Origin: Nitrospira japonica
GTDB taxonomy: Bacteria > Nitrospirota > Thermodesulfovibrionia > UBA6902
Direction: 5' to 3'
DNA length: 64,000 bases
Assembly: GCA_020723105.1 (NCBI GenBank)
Contig: DYJL01000003.1
Span: forward strand, 62,001 to 126,000
Below, in pieces: positions 6,443-61,226 of this stretch. The notes beneath the pieces are model-generated. The model worked only from the letters and a program-made list of their open reading frames with translations. It was not told the origin of the DNA and did no database searches. The position numbers and the translations under genes are program-made. The stretch's first letter is position 1. Each line of letters opens with the position of its first letter.

Positions 6443-7428
6443 TATCTCATGCTCCATTTGTCAGCGCCTTTGCGGGAAATCAGGCCTTTAACAAACGCTA
6501 TACCATAAACTAAATGAGTCAAACATATACCGCAAAATACGTATACAGACCTTCTTTTATCCTCTGTCCCCAGACTGGACACAAGCACAGCTGTGAGATA
6601 TCCGGAGACTGACATAATATAAAGCGTCTTTAAATGCCCATATTCTGAAAAGGACAATGGTATGCCTCCCAGAATCCAGGCAATAAATGCAGTAGGCAGG
6701 AAATATACTGTTTTATCTATGGAAAAAAATTCCCTCATCAACACTCCCTTATCTCTGCCGTAATTCCACATCTGCTTCAGATGTGGAAGGAATACGGGTC
6801 TCCTGTGATGATAAACACACACGCCCGGAGAATAGATTATTTTCTTGCCCAATGCCAATATCTCAAGGCCCAGTTTATAATCCTCGCCTGTCAGGAGCGT
6901 CTCATCAAAACCATTGAGTGTTTCTGCAACGCTTCTTGGAAAAATAAAGTTACATGACATAATATCTTTTGTCTCAAAATCTCCTTTTGTTATCTGATAA
7001 CGCCTGCTGAATTTGCCAAGTCCCACATAGGAATTCAGGATATCGCCCCCAACTTTTTGCCAGAAATTATCTTCAGGCGGAGTAACATTAGGGCCTGTGA
7101 CTGCACCCACATCCAGGGAAGAAACAAAATAATAAACAGCCTTTTCAAGCCAATCACGTTCCGGATATGCGTCAGAATCAATAAAGGCAAAGATGTCCCC
7201 CTTTGCCTTTTTCATGCCGAGATTTCTTTTTATGGAAGGTTTTACAACGCCTGTAGGAATAACTATTACATCTTGCCTGTCCAGTATTTCATTATGATCA
7301 GGCAGAACGATAACCTCAAAACCATGATAGTCCAGCGCCAGGCACTCCTGGATGCACTTTGACGTGTCTTTATCTATGCTCCGGCAGGCAATAATTATTG
7401 AAACAAAAGGTTCAGCAGTCACTTCCAC
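6442..7428 (-). CDS. Family 2 glycosyltransferase with C-terminal membrane helices
   Basis: The N-terminal 220 residues form a GT2 domain (FVSIIIACRSID, then AFIDSDAYPERDWLEK as the Asp-x-Asp region, and TGEDYKLG as the ED motif). The last 90 residues contain two or three hydrophobic helices. Its start lies 17 bases inside the preceding radical SAM gene and its stop touches the next GT2 start, so the three genes are translationally coupled. It likely adds a sugar to a lipid-linked intermediate at the cytoplasmic face. Donor and acceptor are unknown. Confidence 0.85.
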   Translation of the reverse strand: MEVTAEPFVSIIIACRSIDKDTSKCIQECLALDYHGFEVIVLPDHNEILDRQDVIVIPTGVVKPSIKRNLGMKKAKGDIFAFIDSDAYPERDWLEKAVYYFVSSLDVGAVTGPNVTPPEDNFWQKVGGDILNSYVGLGKFSRRYQITKGDFETKDIMSCNFIFPRSVAETLNGFDETLLTGEDYKLGLEILALGKKIIYSPGVCVYHHRRPVFLPHLKQMWNYGRDKGVLMREFFSIDKTVYFLPTAFIAWILGGIPLSFSEYGHLKTLYIMSVSGYLTAVLVSSLGTEDKRRSVYVFCGICLTHLVYGIAFVKGLISRKGADKWSMR

Positions 7429-8848
7429 TTCCTGACTCAGCAGTATGTCTTCCTAAAATCATGTTTGAGATGCCGACCGCACCCCTTAAAATGTTCTTGA
7501 ACTCCAGCCAGGACCTGATACTCAGGAGCATGCGCAAAATATGTTTGGGCCTCATGTATACGCTTCTGTATGCCGTAGTGCAAAGCTTGGCAAGCTGCTG
7601 TCTGGTCATGGAATAAGGAACAAATCCCATCCTGTGCATACCGATGTCGGCAAGATTGGAACTTAGCGTCCCGTGTTTGCTTATTTCATCATATACAGGC
7701 GATCCCGGGAATGGCGTGAATGTAAAAAATTCAGCATAGAAAGGGTCCAGCTTTTTCGCAAACTCAATGGTCTGCAATCCCTCTTCATAGGTCTCGCCGG
7801 GAATGCCCAGTATAAATGTTGCAAATGTCTTTATCCCGTATTTGTGTGTCAAATGGATAGTCTCCTGCGCTCTCGATAAGTCGAGGTTCTTCCTTATTGT
7901 TTTCTGGTTTTTGGGCACCCCTGTTTCAATGCCGTAAAGAATACACCAGCAGCCGGCCTCTGCCATATTTTTCAGCATGACCTCGTCAATCGTGTCCACA
8001 CGGGAAGCGCAAAACCATGTAACATCAAGTCCTCTCTTTTTAATTTCATCGCAGATATCCAGCACCCTTTCCTTGTCATAAGTAAACAGATCATCCCAGA
8101 ATTTTATCTCCTTTACTCCGAATCTCTTTATATAATATTCCATTTCATCCACTACGTTTTTGGCAGACTTGAGCCGTATAGTCTTGCCGTTTACTCTGTA
8201 GCAGTATATGCACTTGAGGTGGCACCCTCTTGCGCTCATCATCTGGGCAATGGGGAGCCTGCTGTAGTGTCCCACCGGAGGACGATATTTATGCATATCA
8301 AGCAGATCAAGGGCATAAGGGGGAAGCTCATCAAGGTTCTCTATCAAAGGCCTTTCAGGATTGCGTATGATTCCTTCTTTTGTTCTTATTATGGTACCCT
8401 CGCAGCCATCCATTCCTTCACCCTTTTCCAGTCTGTTCACTATTTCCCTGACGGTATAGTCTCCCTCTTTCAGACAGACCGCATCAATGTCGCCGGATTC
8501 TTCAAAACACTTTTCCTGGAAATAAGAGGGACCTGGCCCGCCGACTGCAATGTATATGTTGGGGTATTTTGATTTCACTATTTTTGCAAGGTCTCTCGCC
8601 TTCGGCCACATGAGAGAAACACAGGATATGCCCAGAAATCCAGGGCCGATATCGTCTATGCCTTTCAGTATCTCTTCTGTTGAAAGAAGAGTCCCGTCAA
8701 GAATCGTAACATCATGTCCCGCCTCTCTTAAAACCGCTGCAATGGACATCAGTCCGGGCGGCGGCCATATTCCTGCAACGGTACTTCTCATGGCTTTGGT
8801 GTGGGAATCTGAAAGATCCCACTCTGGCATTGCTAATACGCACTTCAT
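7412..8848 (-). CDS. B12-binding-domain radical SAM protein
   Basis: Residues 1-140 resemble the cobalamin-binding Rossmann domain typical of class B radical SAM enzymes (PPPGLMSIAAVLREAGH, then AVGGPGPSYF). The radical SAM core follows with C209-x3-C213-x2-C216 (ARGCHLKCIYC). A C-terminal tail (residues 400-478) lacks further Cys clusters. The closest functional idea is methylation or rearrangement of an unactivated carbon on a sugar, lipid or isoprenoid. It heads a coupled set with two GT2 genes. A second enzyme of the same class lies at 22373-23839, but the two are clearly diverged. Confidence 0.88.
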   Translation of the reverse strand: MKCVLAMPEWDLSDSHTKAMRSTVAGIWPPPGLMSIAAVLREAGHDVTILDGTLLSTEEILKGIDDIGPGFLGISCVSLMWPKARDLAKIVKSKYPNIYIAVGGPGPSYFQEKCFEESGDIDAVCLKEGDYTVREIVNRLEKGEGMDGCEGTIIRTKEGIIRNPERPLIENLDELPPYALDLLDMHKYRPPVGHYSRLPIAQMMSARGCHLKCIYCYRVNGKTIRLKSAKNVVDEMEYYIKRFGVKEIKFWDDLFTYDKERVLDICDEIKKRGLDVTWFCASRVDTIDEVMLKNMAEAGCWCILYGIETGVPKNQKTIRKNLDLSRAQETIHLTHKYGIKTFATFILGIPGETYEEGLQTIEFAKKLDPFYAEFFTFTPFPGSPVYDEISKHGTLSSNLADIGMHRMGFVPYSMTRQQLAKLCTTAYRSVYMRPKHILRMLLSIRSWLEFKNILRGAVGISNMILGRHTAESGSGSDC

Positions 8849-20362: not shown

Positions 20363-21841
20363 TCAACTGCAAGTGGTCCCGGGCAAAAGGCTCTTCATTA
20401 TCCTGATTTCATCTCTTGTAATGCCGCCCAAGAGCAGTAAAGAGACAATATATATACCCCCTGAGACAGGTATCAGATATATCAATTCCCAACTATAAAA
20501 CAAATGAATGAAAACCGCCATGACAATGCATGCAATTGAAGGCTTAACAAAGGGTCTTACAATCGAAAGCAAAGTAAAATATCTGGATACAAGGTAGACA
20601 AAGGAAATCAAACCAATCACAGCAGTAAGGGCTTTAACAATAGCGGCCCCTGTGAAATCAAAGTAATATATAAAAATAACATTTAATACAGTGCTGACTG
20701 CAAAATTTATTGCAATAAAAACCACCTTTTCTTTTTGCCGGTCTATAGCGGTCAAAAGAGCGGAAAAGATAGCCTGAACAAATCCCGCCACTATGGTCCA
20801 GCATGTAATCTTCAGAACTATGCTCGCATCCCGAAACAGATCAGAATAAAACAGACTGATAACTTTGTCCGCAATAGCGGTTAATCCAACGGCTATTGGC
20901 AAACTTAACAATACAAGGTATCGCAATATCGTTTCCGAGGTCTCTATCAGCTTTTCTCTGGACTCTGTAAACAATCTGGTCAGGACCGGCAGGATTGCTA
21001 TATATATAAATGTAGACACCCCGAGAATAAAACCGGCTATCTTTATTCCCGACGAGTAAATGCCTACCGCCTGGTCGTCTTTAAGAAATCCCAAAAACAA
21101 CACATCCTGCCAAAACAATACTTCAACCAGTATCAAAGCCGAAAAAAACGGCATCAATTCGCTCAGGAGCTTTTTGTAATGCGCCGCATCCCTGAACTTT
21201 ATCCGCACAGGCCCTAATGCATGAGACGATACCAGAATACATGTAAAGAGATATATCAGGCTGCTTACCGGAAATACAATCATTACCGCATCATAACTTA
21301 ATCCGAGGTATATCAGAAGCAGACCTGCTGCTGTGTTTAATAATTTTAACCATATTCCCAGAAGGGCCACGCGGCCCATTTTCTGATAACCGTTTAACTC
21401 TGCAAGGAATACATCAGCTATGCTGAAAAAAACCCAGTAACCACCAAAATATCCTATGACCCTTAACTTCTGAACAGAACTGTCCTGAAAGAACAACATA
21501 AGAACAACTGCGGCAAGTAAAAAAATTATAACAATCGAAAGGGCCCTTAACACAAGACAATCATAAAACAACTCCCTGCTGCCTGAATGGTCGCGGGCTA
21601 TTTCACGAACAAGATAAATTGAAATGCCCAAATCAGCAAATACGGAAAAAACATATGTAAAGGAAAAAGCAAAAGAATATTCGCCTGTTGGGACTACGCC
21701 AAACTTCCGGGCAAAATAGAGAAAGAATACGAACTGCAGAAGATAACCAAACTTATCACCTATGGTTAAGAAAGTCGTATTTCTTAATATTCTTCTACCG
21801 TGACCCAATTGATACTGAGACCTCATTGAATTCGGCGTCAC
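20363..21841 (-). CDS. Wzx-like polysaccharide flippase (MOP superfamily)
   Basis: About 490 residues with roughly fourteen hydrophobic segments begin with RILRNTTFLTIGDKFG, the typical opening of RfbX/Wzx oligosaccharide translocases. The mid-protein ADVFLAELNGYQKMG loop also fits. It moves lipid-linked repeat units across the inner membrane. The start is ambiguous: GTG at 21841 overlaps the preceding gene by 47 bases, and ATG at 21826 is also possible; neither has a strong ribosome site. Its presence suggests a flippase-dependent pathway, although no clear Wzy polymerase was recognised. Confidence 0.87.
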   Translation of the reverse strand: MTPNSMRSQYQLGHGRRILRNTTFLTIGDKFGYLLQFVFFLYFARKFGVVPTGEYSFAFSFTYVFSVFADLGISIYLVREIARDHSGSRELFYDCLVLRALSIVIIFLLAAVVLMLFFQDSSVQKLRVIGYFGGYWVFFSIADVFLAELNGYQKMGRVALLGIWLKLLNTAAGLLLIYLGLSYDAVMIVFPVSSLIYLFTCILVSSHALGPVRIKFRDAAHYKKLLSELMPFFSALILVEVLFWQDVLFLGFLKDDQAVGIYSSGIKIAGFILGVSTFIYIAILPVLTRLFTESREKLIETSETILRYLVLLSLPIAVGLTAIADKVISLFYSDLFRDASIVLKITCWTIVAGFVQAIFSALLTAIDRQKEKVVFIAINFAVSTVLNVIFIYYFDFTGAAIVKALTAVIGLISFVYLVSRYFTLLSIVRPFVKPSIACIVMAVFIHLFYSWELIYLIPVSGGIYIVSLLLLGGITRDEIRIMKSLLPGTTCS

Positions 21842-22376
21842 AATATTTTACCCCTATCCCTATTACACCATTCAGGATATCGCCGTCATAAATTTCCATA
21901 TGGTTTGTTCCGTTTATCTGAAATCTGTGAATACCGGAATCAGCGTCAATGTTTACCTGGTAATCTTTCCCGGGTTCAAAATCGTAGTCCTGTTCTGCTA
22001 CGGTGCTCCATGTCCCCCGGAATCTTTTTATCAATTCCACTTTCTTTTTGAAGAGACACAAATGATAAGAATAGTAATTCCTGATATTTCTAAACAGGAC
22101 ATAGATGATTACTCCGCCCTCCGGAGGCTTTATACTGCCTGTCAGCATGCTGAACCTTACCTGCAAAGTTAAATTACTCCACTCTGATGAACCTATCACG
22201 GCTATGTTTTCACCGGTTTCAACTTTCGGTTCTTTGAGATATATGAGTTTATCGGATGACTTCAATTCCCACATCCCTGAGAAAACTTCCCATCTGTCCT
22301 TTCGTCTCATAAATTGAGAAAACCACTTGTGCCGAACTGCCGGACTAGATAAAAGATTAACCTGAGAAACAGTCAT
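21795..22376 (-). CDS. Concanavalin-like (DUF1080-type) beta-sandwich protein without signal peptide
   Basis: The 193-residue protein is rich in strands and has the pattern of LamG/DUF1080 glycan-binding folds: WEVFSGMWELKSS, then a central FRNIRNYYSYHLCLFKK and a late GVIGIGVKYCDAEFNEVSVS. No signal peptide or membrane helix is visible, so it is probably cytoplasmic, which is unusual for this fold. It is embedded between the flippase (47-base overlap) and a radical SAM gene (four-base overlap). A binding or scaffolding role on a glycan intermediate is possible; an enzymatic role is not excluded. Confidence 0.6.
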   Translation of the reverse strand: MTVSQVNLLSSPAVRHKWFSQFMRRKDRWEVFSGMWELKSSDKLIYLKEPKVETGENIAVIGSSEWSNLTLQVRFSMLTGSIKPPEGGVIIYVLFRNIRNYYSYHLCLFKKKVELIKRFRGTWSTVAEQDYDFEPGKDYQVNIDADSGIHRFQINGTNHMEIYDGDILNGVIGIGVKYCDAEFNEVSVSIGSR

Positions 22377-23839
22377 ACTGTTTTTCGAATTCTCTTTAAG
22401 GCCAGTCTGATATTGTACTTCAATATAAACATCAGGAGAGAAACAGTTACATTGAACCCGTATGGGCGCACCTTTTTAAATACTCTGGACCACTTGTCGC
22501 ACTGTCTTAAAGACGGATCGGCCAGCCTGTCAAAATATCCCAACCGGATATGTATTTCATTATAAGTGTTTATCCTCGAATCCCTTGAATAATTATCTGT
22601 CTCAAAAACCGGATCAATATCGTTTGAACCATATTGAAGCGCTCCCTGAATGGAACGGAGTATTCTCCCATTTCTTTGCACCCAGTCCCATGATTCAGTA
22701 TGTGGATAAGGGATAAAGTTAAACCACCACGCATCGATTCCATTTTCTCTGACAAAATCAACCGACTTCAGATCTGCCTCTCTGGAACTGTATGGCAAAC
22801 CTGTAATAAAGAAGCCGCCGACCCGGATTCCGGCCTTTTGAAGATGCTTGATGCCCGTTTCTATGTCTTCCAATTTTTCGCCTTTATTAATTGCATGAAA
22901 GACTTCCTCGTCGGCATTCTCAATGCCTATCCATACATATCTGCATCCTGACTGTTTCATTTTGCCGGCTAAATCTTCACGAAGCCGGTCTGCACGGATT
23001 CCATTCTGACAGTTCCATTCAAGATTAAGCCGCTCAGAAATCAGAAGGTCACAGACTCTGTCCACCCTTTTCAGATTCAGTGTGAAATTATCGTCAACAA
23101 CTGCGAAACAGGTATTGTTGTATTTTTCTTTGGCCTGCTGAAGTTCCTTAACAACGTTTTCCGGCGCCCGGTAACGCCACCTGTTACCCATAATCTTCGG
23201 CATGGAACAGTATGTACACTTGTAAGGACAGCCCCTGCTTGTCAGAATTGGATATTCGGGCAAGCGCCCGCCGTTATCAATAACAGAACTGAAGCTGTCG
23301 TAACAGGGAAAAGGAAGGCCGTTCAGATCCTCTATCTTGCTGCTTCCGGGATTTTGAACTGCTTCTCCATTTCTCCAGTAGATAAGGCCCTTTATACTTC
23401 CCAAATCACTTTTTTCTTTTATGGCTCTGCATAACTCAATGATTGTGAATTCCCCTTCTCCCTGGATTGTAAAATCAATTTTGCTTTCCTTGATAAAATT
23501 CAATCCGTCCAGAGTAATATGCGGGCCTCCTGCAATTGTCGCAACTTTCTGCCGCTTAGCTCTAACAAGGTCAAATATATGCCTTGCAATATCAGCTGTA
23601 AAAGTCTTTATTGAAATACCGAAAAGATCGGGGTTGAATTCTTCCACTGCACGGAGGACCCTTTCTTCCAGGCTTCTGACCGGCAGATCAGGATTTGGGT
23701 CGCCGCAGATTCCAATCTCAATATTGTTCAGGTCGAGTACCCGGACTTCATGGTCTTTCTTAAGTACAGCAGATAAATAGCCCAGGCCCGTATTCAACCC
23801 TTTATTCTTGCCGGGTGGATCTAACAACATTATCTTCAT
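22373..23839 (-). CDS. B12-binding-domain radical SAM protein
   Basis: The cobalamin-binding domain occupies about residues 1-140 (LLDPPGKNKGLNTGLGYLSA, then IAGGPHITLDG). The radical SAM cluster C204-x3-C208-x2-C211 (SRGCPYKCTYC) follows. The downstream motif VWIGIENADEEV is conserved in this class. It begins 10 bases after the end of the next methyltransferase gene. The class includes methylases acting on sp2/sp3 carbons and phosphinates; here a glycan or lipid substrate is likely. Nothing in the sequence fixes the substrate. Confidence 0.88.
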   Translation of the reverse strand: MKIMLLDPPGKNKGLNTGLGYLSAVLKKDHEVRVLDLNNIEIGICGDPNPDLPVRSLEERVLRAVEEFNPDLFGISIKTFTADIARHIFDLVRAKRQKVATIAGGPHITLDGLNFIKESKIDFTIQGEGEFTIIELCRAIKEKSDLGSIKGLIYWRNGEAVQNPGSSKIEDLNGLPFPCYDSFSSVIDNGGRLPEYPILTSRGCPYKCTYCSMPKIMGNRWRYRAPENVVKELQQAKEKYNNTCFAVVDDNFTLNLKRVDRVCDLLISERLNLEWNCQNGIRADRLREDLAGKMKQSGCRYVWIGIENADEEVFHAINKGEKLEDIETGIKHLQKAGIRVGGFFITGLPYSSREADLKSVDFVRENGIDAWWFNFIPYPHTESWDWVQRNGRILRSIQGALQYGSNDIDPVFETDNYSRDSRINTYNEIHIRLGYFDRLADPSLRQCDKWSRVFKKVRPYGFNVTVSLLMFILKYNIRLALKRIRKTV

Positions 23840-23848
23840 AAAATCTCT

Positions 23849-24565
23849 TTAACCTGTCTTCCTTGATACTGTAAGATGCCACTTAGGGCATATTTGGGGC
23901 CCATAATTCAAGTTCTTCACTATCTCAAAATCCATCTTTTCTAAAAGAGAATAAAATTCATCTCTGGCATAATGCCTGACTATTTTCTCCCACCCCGGCA
24001 GTACTCCATGAAACCTGATTGTCTTCAGCCAGTTCAGGGGATTCTTTCCCAGATATCTGGGATAAAATATCGTCCACAAGGGATTGCTGTTGGTAGAATC
24101 CATTATTAATTTCCCATGGTCTTTAAGTACCCGGTGAAAATCAGCCAGTGCCAACTCAGGCCTTTTCAGATGACAAAGCAGATCCAGCCCCACCACATAA
24201 TCAAACGTCTGGTCCTTAAACGGGAGATAGTGGGCATCAGCGTTTACTGGTTTTATTTTTTTTAAATTGTCTGCACGCTCTGCTGCCAGATTTAACATGT
24301 CTGTTGAAATATCAACGAGCACAACATCGTTTCTGTCCGACCGGGCCAGATCCAGCGAGAGCCGTCCCATACCTCCGCCGATATCGAGAATAGTCCTCGG
24401 ACCTTCAGAGCCGTTAATGAGATTTATCGTATCCTCTTTCTTCTGCTTATAAATTTTAGAAAAGGGGTTCCGTTTGTCTTCCGGTTTAAAGTATTTGACA
24501 TATTCGCCGGTCACAAATATTTCCCGGCTGTGCCCTGTGTCTTTTGATCTGCCGTTATTACTCAT
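23849..24565 (-). CDS. Class I SAM-dependent methyltransferase
   Basis: The 238-residue protein has TILDIGGGMGRLSLDLA as SAM motif I, VVLVDIST as motif II and VVGLDLLCHLKRPE as motif IV, matching Methyltransf_11/25. The N-terminal 50 residues (EYVKYFKPEDKRNP) are charged and probably form the lid. A truncated repeat copy lies immediately upstream of its start and may hold its promoter or ribosome-site region; no strong SD was seen. It likely methylates a glycan intermediate together with the adjacent radical SAM enzyme. Confidence 0.85.
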   Translation of the reverse strand: MSNNGRSKDTGHSREIFVTGEYVKYFKPEDKRNPFSKIYKQKKEDTINLINGSEGPRTILDIGGGMGRLSLDLARSDRNDVVLVDISTDMLNLAAERADNLKKIKPVNADAHYLPFKDQTFDYVVGLDLLCHLKRPELALADFHRVLKDHGKLIMDSTNSNPLWTIFYPRYLGKNPLNWLKTIRFHGVLPGWEKIVRHYARDEFYSLLEKMDFEIVKNLNYGPQICPKWHLTVSRKTG

Positions 24566-24640: not shown

Positions 24641-25822
24641 TCAGTTCCCCCTTTGTCTCAACCATGCGTCCCTTGTTCTTTCATAGTAAGACAGAAGTCT
24701 TAAGGCCACTTTTGAGACCTCAAAGTCCTGCGCCCGTTTTTTTGCCCCTTCAGAAATCCTGTTGAGCCCTTCTCTGTCCTTCAGGGCCGTTATCATTTTT
24801 TCAGCAAGAAGTCCGCTCTTCCCCGGCTCCACAAGATATCCGGAAATACCATCTTCAATAATCTCGGCAAATCCTGAACCCGAAGAAGCAATCACAGGAC
24901 GTCCCAATGCCATAGCCTCTACACAGACAAAGCCAAAAGCCTCCCAGAGAGAAGGCAGGACCACCATCCGAGCTGAATTAACAATAGGGAAAAGGTCTTC
25001 ATGACGCAGGTTCTCGAAAAAAATGACCCGGCCCATATAGCCGCCCAATTTTTGTTTCATGTACTCTTTCATGGGCAGCCCCTGAAATCCAATGTCGGAA
25101 CCGACTAACACTGCATTGAGCTGCGGAAACTGTTTAAAGACAGAAGGAAGCGCTTCCGTCAGGATATGCACCCCCTTCCTCTCTTCAAGACGACCAAAAT
25201 ATAAGACATAATCCATATGGGCCAGATTGCCGGGAACCGGCTTGTTCTCCCCGAGTTTTATCACCCGCGACAAGTCCACACTGTTTGGTATTATCTCTAC
25301 GCCTGAAGGGTCTATCCCCCATTTATCGGCAACCGCATTTGCCATGGCCCTTGTAGATGTAAAGATACTGTCACTCCGTAAGGTCTGTGTCTTTTCCATC
25401 CAGTTAAACAACGGGCGGGGCCCTAAAAAAACTTTACCGTTCATCTCTTCTATCAAAAAAAAGGGCGTAGCCAGTCTCGTGACAAGGGGATACTTCTTCT
25501 TCAGTGAAAAGCAAAAGGCTTCGCTCCCGTATTCACTCGACTGTACAATATCAAACCTGAAATTTATCTGAGAGATTTTTTTCGCAACTGAACAGGAATA
25601 TCTAAAAAGCGCCAATTCTTTCAGTTTCATTTTAAAAATCCTGACCCTGTGAACACAGACCCCGTTATCCTCATATGAATTATCAGCATTCTGAGTCGAA
25701 GCTATCACATGAACGGTATGGCCCAGCCCGGCTAAGGCTCCGGCCATGTTGTATGTATAGGTCCCGATTCCGCCAACATGAGTTTCCGGCGGATATTCCT
25801 GTGAAAAAAAACAGATGTTCAT
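24641..25822 (-). CDS. Family 4 glycosyltransferase (GT-B fold)
   Basis: The 393-residue protein begins with MNICFFSQEYPPETHVGGIG, the usual N-terminal domain of GT4 enzymes. It ends with the C-terminal nucleotide-sugar motif LPSLWEAFGFVCVEAMALGRPV, whose E-x7-E pair is present. Middle motifs LYFGRLEERKGVHIL also fit. It transfers a sugar from a nucleotide donor with retention of configuration, cytoplasmically. It is the only clear GT4 member among many GT2 and GT-C enzymes here. Its stop is followed by a repeat half-copy. Confidence 0.9.
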   Translation of the reverse strand: MNICFFSQEYPPETHVGGIGTYTYNMAGALAGLGHTVHVIASTQNADNSYEDNGVCVHRVRIFKMKLKELALFRYSCSVAKKISQINFRFDIVQSSEYGSEAFCFSLKKKYPLVTRLATPFFLIEEMNGKVFLGPRPLFNWMEKTQTLRSDSIFTSTRAMANAVADKWGIDPSGVEIIPNSVDLSRVIKLGENKPVPGNLAHMDYVLYFGRLEERKGVHILTEALPSVFKQFPQLNAVLVGSDIGFQGLPMKEYMKQKLGGYMGRVIFFENLRHEDLFPIVNSARMVVLPSLWEAFGFVCVEAMALGRPVIASSGSGFAEIIEDGISGYLVEPGKSGLLAEKMITALKDREGLNRISEGAKKRAQDFEVSKVALRLLSYYERTRDAWLRQRGN

Positions 25823-27240
25823 TATTGACCGGACCCTGCGGGAGGAATTGACGGCACGGTATCAGCGCCTGTTAACGCCGGTCCGGCAAACGTGGTAACA
25901 CTCTTTGCAGGAAGCACCGCCGTAAATCCATTCCCATTAACTTCAATGTTTAAGAAAGCCGCGAGGTTCAGGGTGTCAGTCGTAACATACGGCGTAACAG
26001 GGCCCGCCGGCAGATTGTTGAGACTGATATCTAATGTTTGATCAATACTGTTTTTATTGATAGCTACTATTGCAAAGCTGCCCGATACGGGATCTTTATA
26101 GGCCGATGTAAATACTCCCATTTCCGGCTCAGGAGTGCTGTCAATTCGATAGTATCCGGGCCGGACAAAACGGCTGAAATTACCTATAGTCCACAAACGC
26201 TTGGCATAGTTGTATGTGTCTCCGTCAATTTCGATTATCTTTTCGCCCCAGTCTTTTCTCCAGGACTTGCCGGTTGTCAGCCAATGCCAATTCCATGCGC
26301 TAATCTTGGCAGCAGTCATCCATTTATGGAGCCTTTCCGCCCAGAAGAGACCGTCGTCAATGCCTGGATCAGCAAGAGAGCCTGTTCCAAAGTTGCCGTT
26401 CTCTTCGGTTTGCCATACCGGCTTCTTTGACGACTTTGCGCTGGACAATTGAAAAGGATTGGCCGTCCAGTAACCATGAGCAGAGATGATATCAAGAATG
26501 GGCTCTGTAGCAGGGTCCTTAAGCGTCGGCTTAATAAGATCGTCCTTCCACTTCATCTGTTCTGCTGCGATTACCTTTGCCTTGATGCCCTGCTGGTCCC
26601 AGACAGGCTTAAGACTATTTTTCAGAAAATCGTGAAACTGGGGACCGGTCCACCTGCAGGACCGATATTTAGCTGTAAGGTCCGGCTCATTCTGCAGTGA
26701 CACCGCAGAAATATCAATGTTGTATTGGGACTTGAAATCTGTCAACCAGCGCGCGAGAAATTCAGCAAAGTCATTGTAAAAGTCGACTTTAAGACTTCCG
26801 CCATTATTGATATCATTATTGGTCTTCATCCATGCAGGCGGGCTCCCGACCCTGCCGAAATAATTCGTAACCCCGCGCTTCTTTGCCTCGTTTAATAGCC
26901 ACGCGTCTTTTTCCTGGACTGTTATATCATAGTTGCCTGGCGACGGCTCAAAATCATGTGAAATATATACTCGAACAATGCTTAGCCCTATGCCGTTGTT
27001 GACATCATACAGCAAGTCCAGGACCTCTTTCTGAGAGACTGCCGACATTTTTTGAATATCACGCATTGCGCCTGCTTCGCCGCCGAATCCGTCTATTCTC
27101 TGGTGGGTCACACTTCCATCAACAATTACCCGGACCGCAGCGTCAACACTGCCGACATAGCACGCTACGAAAAATGTAAGCGCAAGCAGGCTGGAATGCA
27201 GGACAGGACTGTATTTGAGATGAAATAGTTTAAAGACCAT
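25822..27240 (-). CDS. Secreted GH30-like glycoside hydrolase
   Basis: A hydrophobic signal sequence (residues about 14-35, ending near VDAA) precedes a TIM-barrel with GH30 motifs: RIDGFGGEAGAMRD, the acid/base in SLQNEPDL (Glu185), and the nucleophile region PVWQTEENGN (Glu279). A short beta-sandwich domain follows (about 370-455), as in GH30 glucuronoxylanase and glucosylceramidase-like enzymes. It probably cleaves or edits the exported polysaccharide. No ribosome site is evident. Residues 9-15 (KYSPVLH) are encoded by a repeat remnant. Confidence 0.82.
   Translation of the reverse strand: MVFKLFHLKYSPVLHSSLLALTFFVACYVGSVDAAVRVIVDGSVTHQRIDGFGGEAGAMRDIQKMSAVSQKEVLDLLYDVNNGIGLSIVRVYISHDFEPSPGNYDITVQEKDAWLLNEAKKRGVTNYFGRVGSPPAWMKTNNDINNGGSLKVDFYNDFAEFLARWLTDFKSQYNIDISAVSLQNEPDLTAKYRSCRWTGPQFHDFLKNSLKPVWDQQGIKAKVIAAEQMKWKDDLIKPTLKDPATEPILDIISAHGYWTANPFQLSSAKSSKKPVWQTEENGNFGTGSLADPGIDDGLFWAERLHKWMTAAKISAWNWHWLTTGKSWRKDWGEKIIEIDGDTYNYAKRLWTIGNFSRFVRPGYYRIDSTPEPEMGVFTSAYKDPVSGSFAIVAINKNSIDQTLDISLNNLPAGPVTPYVTTDTLNLAAFLNIEVNGNGFTAVLPAKSVTTFAGPALTGADTVPSIPPAGSGQ
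27198..27219. repeat. Repeat remnant inside the GH30 signal peptide
   Basis: GCAGGACAGGACTGTATTTG is nearly identical to the left end of the dispersed element. Here it lies inside a coding sequence, where its complement encodes KYSPVLH in the n-region of the signal peptide. Confidence 0.5.
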
Positions 27241-28171
27241 GTTTTACAGCAAAGTCGAAAATTTTCTTGCGTACAGCATCCGGCAGATGTCGCATAACTA
27301 CTTCCTTAACGTAGTCTCTGGACAAGTCCTTAATTAAAAAAATCGGGGCCACAGTATCCGTACCCGCTTCTTTTTTGCCTTTTTCGTAAAGATATGGATC
27401 GAGGAAATTCAGCGGACATTTACAAAATTTAAATGGGCATCGAATAAGCTTCTTATTGAATTTTACTTTATCATGTATCTGACCGATTGATCTGGATATA
27501 TTAAAACAGGGGCTTATATATCCATAAGGGTTAACAACGCCGACATTATATCCGGCGTTACATAGCTTGCCTTTCTGCTTATAGGTAGTCGAATTTTTAT
27601 CACTTTGACTCAATATGTTAATCTCTTTCTCATTGTAAGAGTCAGGATATTTTTTCCCGCTGTACTCTCCGATAAAAGGGTCCAACCTCACGCTTATCCC
27701 TTCCTCCTGAAAATATTCCCTGTATTTTTCAACTTCATCCAGAAGGGGCGGATATGCTACTACATGTGCGGTTATGTCGAATCCCCTTGCCCTGCAAAGC
27801 TGAAAATTGTGTACATATTTTTCCAGCAAGTTAAGTCTTTCCAATTCTTTAATATGTAATGATGCCTGGATATATAGCACTCTTTCGGGATCAATTTTTT
27901 CAGAAAATTCTTTGATCTTCCCTGAAGTCAGGTTGGTGTTAATGCCAATAAAGTGATGTCGAGTTATTTCAACACAGACCTCGATAATATTTGGTATCAA
28001 AAACGGCTCTCCCCCGCCGGTAAAACTGATTCTAAAGACTTTACCGGTTTCATTGAGGGCCCTTGTTATGTCAAAGGTATTTATTTTGGGGATTTCCGAA
28101 CTCTTCTTTATGGGATTGCTGAAGCAATATGCACAATTCAGGTTACATCTATAAGTGGGAATCCAGTGCAA
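27230..28171 (-). CDS. SPASM-like radical SAM protein
   Basis: The radical SAM cluster C9-x3-C13-x2-C16 (RCNLNCAYC) lies almost at the N-terminus, and the C-terminal part has two further Cys groups (KLCNAG and SPCF, then CPFKFCKCP) consistent with a SPASM-like auxiliary cluster. The track uses a TTG start with no good ribosome site. The frame stays open for about 16 codons upstream, where GGGAGG precedes an ATT codon by five bases, so the true N-terminus may be longer. It follows the 686-residue unknown gene directly and probably acts with it. Substrate is unknown. Confidence 0.8.
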   Translation of the reverse strand: MHWIPTYRCNLNCAYCFSNPIKKSSEIPKINTFDITRALNETGKVFRISFTGGGEPFLIPNIIEVCVEITRHHFIGINTNLTSGKIKEFSEKIDPERVLYIQASLHIKELERLNLLEKYVHNFQLCRARGFDITAHVVAYPPLLDEVEKYREYFQEEGISVRLDPFIGEYSGKKYPDSYNEKEINILSQSDKNSTTYKQKGKLCNAGYNVGVVNPYGYISPCFNISRSIGQIHDKVKFNKKLIRCPFKFCKCPLNFLDPYLYEKGKKEAGTDTVAPIFLIKDLSRDYVKEVVMRHLPDAVRKKIFDFAVKHGL

Positions 28172-28214
28172 CCAGCAATCATAATCCCGATTTGCTTTTT
28201 GTATGGTATTCGTA

Positions 28215-30257
28215 CTAATGATGGCCTCCCTTGCCGGCTATTATTCTTGCATATCTAGCAATGGTGTACGGTTTAACATTGATCAACTTTTTTGAAGCTC
28301 CGCCAGCAGCACAGAATTGCGCTATTTCAAACAACCTGTTCCCTCTTTTCCAGAATTCCCCGCTGAAGGTCCATAAACATGAATCTATTGTGCTCACCAT
28401 CCAGCCCGGCTTATTTCTTTTTAATAATGCCCTTTCGGATTTTTTCAAGTCAGAAACATCATTTACGGTCTCAAAAGGGGTCCAGCCGTCCCACTGTCCT
28501 GACGTATAGTTTAACGCTATAAAATCATCATCGGCATATTTAGTTTCAGGATTTGTGTTGAACCCTGCTTTTGTAAACATGTACTTAAGTCCGGTAGATT
28601 TTACAGCCTCGACAACATCCTTTTTAACAGCGCCTGCCTTATAAAATTCATAAGGCCGATACGCTTCAAAATACTTCATTAAACCGCGCTCCTGGACAAG
28701 GCGTCCGATTTTTTCAACAAACCTCTGTTTTAAAGAACCCGATATTTCAGTGTCAGAAGGAGCGCCATCACTGAACTTTTTGTCTCTTCCATGATATCTG
28801 AGCTGGAAGTAAGGAGGATACTTTAAAAAACGGACAGCGCTCGGTCTCTCCGGACGGTCCAGTTTTTCAAGATCGGTATCCATAGTCGCCCACCATCCTC
28901 TGGGCGCGAAACTGTCATTCTTGACCTTCTTTAAAATTCTGGACAACCCCTCTGCCATGTCCTCCAGCAATCTTTCTTTCGTCATATATGATTCTATACC
29001 AACTCCAACTCCGCAACTGCCAAGAACCGGTTCTACAAGAGGATAAACTCCACCCTGATGCAGCGGCACCGTAAGCAATTCAAAAGGAGGATGCATCATG
29101 TACTCATAACTTTGAGCAGTCACAATCATTCCGCATCTTAGTCTGCTCATCGCTATAAGATCCATGAGATTATGAAAATTCTCAACTTCACGTATCATTC
29201 CACTCCAGAACATCAGTGACACAAGAATCCTTCCTTCTGAAGCAAATTGTCTTAGTTCTTCATCGCTGTATTCATCATTATAAAATCCATTTCCATGTCC
29301 GTTTGTATCCCAGCCATACTCCGCATGTCGGACCGACTGAAAAGGAGGACGACAAGGATCAATAACCTGAAGGCACTGATTTAATTTAGACAACTCAAAA
29401 AAATCCCGGTCGCTGTACTGACGGCCGTAAACAACGTTTCCCCTTGAGGAAACCAAAGGGCCTAACTGAGACACAATCTTTTCCTGAGGGACACTATATA
29501 TGGCTATCAGATCTTTTTCGCATGCTGTCGGCACCCAATGAACTGCCAGTATCGGATCCCCCAGTATCCACCCCTTGACGGTTTTTTCCCATCTGTGCGC
29601 TATCCGTTCAGTAACAGTTAAATAATCATCACCGGATTTCAACTGATCAACAACTTCAATATTGTATCCTTTCTTAACCAGTCTGCCGGTTACGTCATCA
29701 GCAACAAAAAAACAAAATATTTTGCCGCCTTTCTGATACAGACCGGCCAAATCTTCATCTGAGATCGTCTCCGGTACCCCGATTGCCTGGCGATAATAAA
29801 TTTCCGGATACAAATACGCCTCCAGGCCTGACAGGGTTTTTCCGAAGCTGGAGCCTATCATTACAATGTTTAAAGGCAAAGCAGCATTCAGATAATTAAA
29901 AGTCCTCTGGTAAATAACGCTTAGCTGATCTGAGAGGGCTATAACAGGAACGCCTAAATTTTTTATACTTTGTGAAAAAATTGTCTCTCCTGTGGAGACT
30001 ATTGAAACGTCGAATTTGTGAAGTATGAAATAAAACTCTTCAAAGTGCCTGTCTCCGCAGACAGTGCCGCCTGTTAACAGCCCTGTTGACAGATTTCTTG
30101 AATCTCCCCCTGGAAAATGGACACCCTGGTGATAGCTGTCATAATAGTTATCAAAAAGACAGTCCTTCGTTTTTGCAAGCCAGGCCAGAGTAGACGCAAT
30201 TGAAACATTGTCCGGACGGTCCAATTTAGAAAGATATAAAATTAATTTCTTTTTCAT
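28215..30257 (-). CDS. Large protein of unknown family
   Basis: The start is taken at ATG 30257 (MKKKLILYLSKLDRPDN); the track uses GTG at 30275, which would add six residues. No signal peptide or membrane helix is seen, so it is probably cytoplasmic. The N-terminal half has alternating strands and helices with Gly-rich turns (STGLLTGGTVCGDRHFEEF, MIGSSFGKTLSG), suggesting a Rossmann-type or GT-B-like fold. The C-terminal 220 residues (RYHGRDKKFSDG, GLKYMFTKAGFN, GWMVSTIDSCLWTFSG) may be a separate catalytic domain, faintly like NodB-type deacetylases. I do not recognise the family; the gene order links it with the following radical SAM gene. Confidence 0.75.
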   Translation of the reverse strand: MKKKLILYLSKLDRPDNVSIASTLAWLAKTKDCLFDNYYDSYHQGVHFPGGDSRNLSTGLLTGGTVCGDRHFEEFYFILHKFDVSIVSTGETIFSQSIKNLGVPVIALSDQLSVIYQRTFNYLNAALPLNIVMIGSSFGKTLSGLEAYLYPEIYYRQAIGVPETISDEDLAGLYQKGGKIFCFFVADDVTGRLVKKGYNIEVVDQLKSGDDYLTVTERIAHRWEKTVKGWILGDPILAVHWVPTACEKDLIAIYSVPQEKIVSQLGPLVSSRGNVVYGRQYSDRDFFELSKLNQCLQVIDPCRPPFQSVRHAEYGWDTNGHGNGFYNDEYSDEELRQFASEGRILVSLMFWSGMIREVENFHNLMDLIAMSRLRCGMIVTAQSYEYMMHPPFELLTVPLHQGGVYPLVEPVLGSCGVGVGIESYMTKERLLEDMAEGLSRILKKVKNDSFAPRGWWATMDTDLEKLDRPERPSAVRFLKYPPYFQLRYHGRDKKFSDGAPSDTEISGSLKQRFVEKIGRLVQERGLMKYFEAYRPYEFYKAGAVKKDVVEAVKSTGLKYMFTKAGFNTNPETKYADDDFIALNYTSGQWDGWTPFETVNDVSDLKKSERALLKRNKPGWMVSTIDSCLWTFSGEFWKRGNRLFEIAQFCAAGGASKKLINVKPYTIARYARIIAGKGGHH

Positions 30258-30287: not shown

Positions 30288-30420
30288 AACGCAAGGCAAG
30301 GCTGTATTTGAGCGGCTTTATTTTGTCATAAAAAAAACAGGATGTTTTTTTGACAAAATACCTCGCAGGAGGACACGAAGTCCGACGAGAATGAGCGAAA
30401 ATACAGCCTTGTCCTGCGTT
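30288..30420. repeat. Complete copy of dispersed inverted-repeat element (copy B)
   Basis: The ends AACGCAAGGCAAGGCTGTAT and ATACAGCCTTGTCCTGCGTT are inverted repeats with two mismatches over 20 bases. Inside, TATTTTGTCA pairs with TGACAAAATA around a short loop. The right subterminal GACGAGAATGAGCGAAAATA and left TTTGAGCGG are shared with the other copies. It is 133 bases long and sits upstream of the 686-residue unknown gene. The ORF-track entry 30226-30474 is an artefact of this element. Confidence 0.75.
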
Positions 30421-60510: not shown

Positions 60511-60551
60511 TTATACATTTTATGTCACTTTATCAACATAAAGGAGGCCAT

Positions 60552-61226
60552 ATGAATAAAATTATGTCACTAATCGTTGTAGTAATACTCGGATTAGTTT
60601 TAAACGGATGGGCCATTCCCATAGTTGGAGATACTGCAAATTCAACAGGAAATCTTGGCAATTTTTCCGGAAGTTTTACATATTCATTTACAAATGATAC
60701 TTCGGCAACAATCGTTGTGAATCTCACAAATACTTCTCCTGCAGCTAATGGAGGCTATCTTACAGCGTTTGCCTTTAATAATCCAAACAATTCTATAACA
60801 AACGCATCACTCTTGAGCACTTCAGCGAGCTTTGGTCTTATTGGAACCCCGGATTTTAATAACACAATTCCCGCAAATCCCTTTGGTGATTTTGATGTTG
60901 GATCCTCAATAACCAGTTCATGGTTAGGGGGTGGACGCCCTCTCAGCGGGATAGCTGTTGGTAATTCAAGCACTTTTACCTTTTTCCTGACAGGCTCCGG
61001 ATTTAGCAGCTTGACAACTCAAGACTTCATTGACGAATTGACATCATCTCCTTCCGGACAGAACTACTGGTTTGCAGCCCGCTTCCGCGGCTTTGACAAC
61101 GGAGGGAGTGATAAAGTACCTGGGGTACCAGTTGAGACCCCACCGATTCCAGAACCCTCAACCATTATTTTGCTTGCTACCGGCATAATGGGATTGCTCC
61201 TTTTTAGGAAAAAATTAGCGAAATAA
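60552..61226 (+). CDS. PEP-CTERM sorted protein of unknown function
   Basis: The start at 60552 (MNKIMSLIVVVILGLVLNGW) is chosen because AAGGAGGCC sits directly upstream; the track's 60522 adds an unlikely leader. A signal peptide leads to a strand-rich domain with many Asn, Ser and Gly. The C-terminus is a classic sorting signal: PEP at residue 200, then STIILLATGIMGLLLF and RKK. It should be processed by exosortase A. The body of the protein gives no known family. Confidence 0.87.
   Translation: MNKIMSLIVVVILGLVLNGWAIPIVGDTANSTGNLGNFSGSFTYSFTNDTSATIVVNLTNTSPAANGGYLTAFAFNNPNNSITNASLLSTSASFGLIGTPDFNNTIPANPFGDFDVGSSITSSWLGGGRPLSGIAVGNSSTFTFFLTGSGFSSLTTQDFIDELTSSPSGQNYWFAARFRGFDNGGSDKVPGVPVETPPIPEPSTIILLATGIMGLLLFRKKLAK

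Follow-up and report, generated by a model that had tools for sequence, protein, structure and literature searches.

Related Systems

Bacteria join glycosyltransferases of the GT4 family to methyltransferases in systems that presumably include ManT/MeT1 of methylmannose polysaccharide and the WbdD capping system; in both, as at the locus described here, a GT4 enzyme and a class I methyltransferase are joined in one pathway. To our knowledge, no GT4-methyltransferase pair has been described with a partner like X680, the name given here to a 680-residue protein encoded in a 64,000-nucleotide stretch of Nitrospira japonica DNA (the window).

The surroundings of X680 resemble PEP-CTERM/XrtA-type exopolysaccharide operons. 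As read from its sequence, the window likewise has Wzc-like, export, priming transferase, AAA, and TPR genes, together with a PEP-CTERM-like protein. The likeness does not extend to X680 itself: none of the 395 further genomes searched in the window's phylum has it, and the Azospirillum loci that carry X680 lack such a layout. The PEP-CTERM-like tail (PEPSTIILLATGIMGLLLFRKK) ends a small secreted protein at 60522-61226 and suggests that the genome has an exosortase-type system. Proteins of the NodB/CE4 type (PF01522) are common in operons of the same kind as that of X680.

The X680 Gene and Its Homologues

The sequence-only reading had placed an unrecognised cytosolic protein at 28215-30257, and an uninterrupted open reading frame of 680 codons occupies exactly this interval on the minus strand. 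It begins with an ATG at 30257, in agreement with the start position in most homologues, and ends with a stop at 28215-28217; the plus strand of the interval has many stops. The gap upstream holds a nested inverted repeat (30288-30420), detected by a repeat search, with outer arms of 22 nt (91%) and inner arms of 16 nt (94%). Ten near-matches to the outer-arm core CAAGGCTGTATTT occur in the window versus 2.5 expected (the arms themselves account for two of the ten), and the repeat looks like either a small mobile element or a hairpin that controls transcription.

X680 alone has no match in Pfam, NCBIfam, or the PDB. A 15-sequence alignment gave nothing above noise in Pfam or the PDB, and a 6-row alignment, the only set used for alignment searches of NCBIfam and PHROGs, gave nothing above noise in those two collections. 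The view that X680 belongs to no known family thus holds across all four resources. A literature search returned nothing on the protein, and no relatives were present in the viral contigs or phages searched.

Fourteen homologues were found, 11 in Chloroflexota and three on Azospirillum megaplasmids, with identities of 31-47%. Because this similarity spans about 640 or more residues, chance is excluded as its source. Two Chloroflexota metagenome-assembled genomes carry a homologue at 40% identity, and nine more came from a search of 400 Chloroflexota genomes, an even draw from a larger group. The closest homologue, in genome G581, is 47% identical, and those on the three Azospirillum plasmids are 32% identical and annotated as ‘hypothetical protein’. 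The homologue in G796 is incomplete, its gene being cut by a contig end. That in G544 has two stops in the matched reading, although the open reading frame at L062:8930-11035 is nevertheless open over 701 codons. Weak matches in G025, G059, and G131 were rejected as short, the one in G059 lying inside an unrelated open reading frame that reads as DUF72-like.

In the window's own phylum, the other 395 of 396 searched genomes lack X680. Since only this one genome has the gene, X680 was likely acquired horizontally. Further phyla were sampled through 72,556 plasmids and a single pattern-based pass over genome contigs, and given that limited sampling the family is probably wider than the members found here.

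A Methyltransferase Accompanies X680

The genes downstream of X680 share its orientation on the minus strand, each separated from the next by a short gap or overlapping it. Two of them, a class I SAM methyltransferase (23849-24565; Methyltransf_11/25 in Pfam) and a GT4-family glycosyltransferase (24641-25822; assigned by Pfam and BLAST), lie 2.4-6.4 kb farther down the operon. The methyltransferase passes no specific NCBIfam cut-off. An orthologue is present in all 11 Chloroflexota genomes with X680, on all three plasmids, and in the window, versus none of the 389 Chloroflexota genomes without X680 (reverse search of the 400 genomes at 1e-35; all true matches score 1e-55 or better). The hypergeometric probability of this split is nominally 1e-21, a value that assumes independent genomes whereas the 11 carriers are related by descent. 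Within the window's class, the methyltransferase has no match at 1e-25 in any of the 230 remaining genomes. X680, the methyltransferase (1e-15), and the GT4 enzyme (1e-50) each match the same three of the 72,556 plasmids and no others.

Gene order tightens the association. At all three Azospirillum loci, the GT4 and methyltransferase are fused, and the fusion gene overlaps X680 by 4 nt; in Azospirillum lipoferum 4B, the X680 homologue is WP_014249801 and the fused partner WP_014249802. A Chloroflexota locus (L002) has a GT4 gene (38% identical to that of the window) and a methyltransferase gene (42%) directly before X680. The methyltransferase adjoins X680 in five genomes (G461, G544, G477, G635, and G767), shares a contig with it at a distance of 8-13 kb in three (G581, G760, and G742), and is on another, mostly short, contig in the remaining three (G460, G777, and G796). 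In the last of these, at L095:1603-3966, the methyltransferase domain ends a 787-residue open frame whose first 540 residues have no Pfam match; high GC content may have produced this frame artefactually, or it may represent a different fusion.

The GT4 enzyme is a less constant companion. GT4 proteins of the partner loci are 37-44% identical to that of the window by BLAST, and an orthologue occurs near the methyltransferase or X680 in eight of the 11 Chloroflexota genomes, at all three Azospirillum loci, and in the window. It sits beside the methyltransferase in most genomes with X680 and elsewhere within the locus in G742. Because no GT4 gene was seen near the methyltransferase at the loci of G581, G777, and G796 (the regions surveyed for it), the constant pair is X680 and the methyltransferase, with GT4 as the usual third member.

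The trees of these proteins mirror one another. The X680 and methyltransferase trees correlate with r = 0.82 (0 of 5000 permutations), and the X680 and GT4 trees with r = 0.79 (2 of 5000). The window and G581 pair together with support of 1.00 in the X680 tree and 0.997 in the methyltransferase tree. X680 is a family universally associated with this methyltransferase, frequently adjoining or overlapping the GT4-methyltransferase pair, and its members are co-inherited with these partners.

All X680 loci that are readable or annotated are rich in polysaccharide genes, including those for glycosyltransferases, flippases, Wzz/tyrosine kinase, and O-antigen ligase, which bears out the earlier placement of X680 in a glycan-building operon. 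An oligosaccharide flippase-like membrane protein of the window (20363-21841, minus strand, identified by BLAST) has weak homologues (21-25%) in several partner loci. A 193-residue protein (21795-22376, minus strand) is lectin-like (concanavalin-type); no domain in the window copy passes a Pfam or NCBIfam cut-off, and G581 has a 37% homologue. In G777 and G742, proteins with weak domains of this type come after the methyltransferase.

Conserved Residues and Candidate Folds

The highest hydropathy of X680 over 19 residues is 1.31, with no membrane-like stretch, and the protein looks cytosolic, as had been proposed. The blocks picked out earlier as invariant-looking (TKAGFN, GWMVSTIDSCLW, and INVKPYTIARYARI) do recur, falling within conserved regions of the 15 homologues, which span three phyla. 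Invariant positions in the 15-sequence alignment include G556, Y559, F566, P617-G618-W619, D625, L628-W629, V661, P663, and R668-Y669-A670-R671. Tryptophan is overrepresented among them (seven observed versus two expected, p = 0.004). The C-terminal half has eight invariant acidic residues, from D332 to D625, and the invariant carboxylates include E357, E409, E422, D460, D590, E608, and D625. The same alignment has no invariant His or Cys in this half. Such a pattern of residues would suit a carbohydrate-binding, metal-independent site.

As to the suggestion that X680 has two domains, a layout of an alpha/beta N-terminal half and a Trp-rich C-terminal half is plausible. AlphaFold models built from a three-row alignment have a mean pLDDT of 37 for the whole protein and 41 for the C-terminal half, and fold searches with these poor models were uninformative (TM-scores of ~0.1-0.2).

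One reading makes the C-terminal half (residues 325-680) a NodB-type (CE4) barrel, of (beta/alpha)7 form, whose metal ligands have been lost or replaced. By eye, the order of motifs is alike (FWTGMIRE..., SCGxGxxIES, and YRPYE...GP...DV..AVRSAGF.Y), R534-P535-[YF] is conserved and compares with the RxPY of NodB motif 3, and hhalign, which aligns the profiles weakly around this R-P-Y, places the NodB motif-3 region where it would be expected in every run that used a cleaned NodB set. The scores of those runs (22-23, probability 1-2%, P 0.03-0.04) nevertheless fall inside the range of shuffled NodB comparisons, which reach 24.6 in 60 shuffles and 23.0 in another run, so that the motif-3 alignment is within noise, and the structure models are too poor to add to it. 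Motifs 1 (TFDD) and 2 (HxxxH) are absent, the corresponding stretches reading FW[TS]GM and [VI]ES; none of the 15 members matches PF01522 at E<=1; and NodB proteins differ from X680 also in that the latter has no invariant His in its C-terminal half. Membership in the NodB family was rejected on these grounds, and a barrel of this type with altered ligands is doubtful.

A second reading makes X680 a catalytically dead scaffold, or a chain-length or termination subunit, that keeps both the GT4 enzyme and the methyltransferase on the growing glycan, to which its Trp-rich half binds. The invariable pairing with the methyltransferase, the 4-nt overlap with the fusion gene, and the lack of invariant His or Cys in the C-terminal half all agree with this, and the Trp-rich invariants fit glycan binding. 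However, the C-terminal half keeps eight invariant acidic residues, and scaffolds usually diverge faster. This reading is judged unlikely.

X680 could also be a non-canonical glycosyltransferase, its N-terminal half being GT-B-like or a related Rossmann unit and its C-terminal half an accessory barrel. In the weak N-terminal model, strands alternate with helices (pLDDT of 50-60 in parts), sugar-binding proteins and, in a few cases, GT-B enzymes are among the weak fold matches, and the surroundings are rich in glycosyltransferases. The low TM-scores of those matches weigh against it, as do the profile comparisons. Against GT4, the N-terminal half scores 19.8 with hhalign (probability 0.5%) versus up to 16 for shuffles with the same alignment, and with six rows it scores 16.0 versus a shuffled 19.4; against the GT2 profile it is at noise. 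With hmmscan empty and the profile score near noise, X680 is not placed in GT4, and its profiles were at or near noise against GT4, GT2, another glycosyltransferase set, and the methyltransferase. A glycosyltransferase of this form is improbable.

Radical SAM Enzymes at the Locus

The gene directly after X680 encodes a radical SAM enzyme with a CNLNCAYC motif (27230-28171, minus strand; Pfam PF04055), and a GH30-like glycoside hydrolase follows, an order correctly given in the sequence-only reading. The hydrolase (25822-27240, minus strand; Pfam GH30 models) has an N-terminal hydrophobic stretch; its nearest NCBIfam model is XynC, below cut-off, and it has no match in the loci homologous to that of X680. 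The start codon of the radical SAM gene is uncertain. There is no in-frame ATG or GTG ahead of CNLNCAYC, only a TTG at 28171, and the frame (27230-28237, 335 codons) stays open ~22 codons beyond that TTG, into the end of X680.

The earlier description of this enzyme as SPASM-like was not borne out by profile searches. The protein has C-terminal cysteines, but no profile match to the SPASM domain PF13186, and only PF04055 passes its cut-off. The best NCBIfam match is to STM4011-type radical SAM proteins at 51.6 bits, far under the 200-bit cut-off. Nor does the enzyme travel with X680. Relatives are absent from all 11 Chloroflexota genomes with X680 (E<=1e-8), from the plasmids, including the three Azospirillum carriers (1e-15), and from 60 relatives (1e-20), in a search where the query does recover itself. 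Because of these absences, the gene is a local neighbor of X680 and not a partner. That the two form a functional pair installing a modification, as first proposed, is very improbable: they adjoin in the window, and the G581 locus has two SPASM-domain radical SAM genes (L064:5444-6637 and L064:14428-15510), but these are unrelated to the adjacent enzyme, which has no relative in any other X680 genome and never adjoins an X680 orthologue.

Radical chemistry on the glycan may still hold for one branch, by way of a different enzyme. A radical SAM enzyme with a B12-binding domain (22373-23839, minus strand; Pfam B12-binding and Radical_SAM; nearest NCBIfam model HpnJ, below cut-off) is common to the window and G581, where a gene 48% identical to it adjoins the methyltransferase. 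At 1e-40, it is absent from the other ten Chloroflexota genomes with X680. The idea of a radical SAM modification thus fails for the adjacent enzyme and may apply to the B12-binding one in the branch of the window and G581. Another radical SAM-like protein of the cobalamin type, recognized by reading its sequence, is encoded in the same operon region at 7412-8848, ~15 kb from the first.

A Proposed Role for X680

The favored reading, which we consider about as probable as its negation, makes X680 a sugar-active protein of the cytosol that belongs to an undescribed family. It would be a fixed part of a small glycan-modifying module, set within exported-polysaccharide operons, that unites X680 with a class I O- or N-methyltransferase and usually a GT4 glycosyltransferase. 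At the cytosolic face, a lipid-linked oligosaccharide would receive a sugar through the GT4 enzyme, and the methyltransferase would methylate that sugar. X680 may be the catalyst of another step on this sugar or on the acceptor, such as trimming, transfer, or deacylation. The active part would be the Trp-lined, probably barrel-shaped C-terminal half, with E357, E409, E422, D460, D590, E608, and D625 as candidate catalytic residues; the conserved Trp and acidic residues are the basis for suggesting catalysis. The finished glycan unit would then be flipped out. In the window/G581 branch, the B12-binding radical SAM enzyme could act in the same pathway.

A bolder version is tentative, and on balance we would not expect it: that X680 founds a new carbohydrate-active enzyme family and, together with the methyltransferase dedicated to it, produces a methylated sugar unit or cap undescribed in bacterial exopolysaccharides, which one branch alters further with the cobalamin-dependent radical SAM enzyme.

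It is uncommon for a 680-residue protein conserved in three phyla to be absent from Pfam, NCBIfam, PHROGs, and the PDB alike. Its close presence/absence tie to a single methyltransferase makes X680 part of a testable pathway, and the Azospirillum carriers are sequenced and annotated soil and plant-associated bacteria whose polysaccharide can be analyzed directly. X680 is probably a missing piece in the building of a methylated surface polysaccharide by some bacteria and, if it is an enzyme, would represent a new family for polysaccharide biosynthesis.
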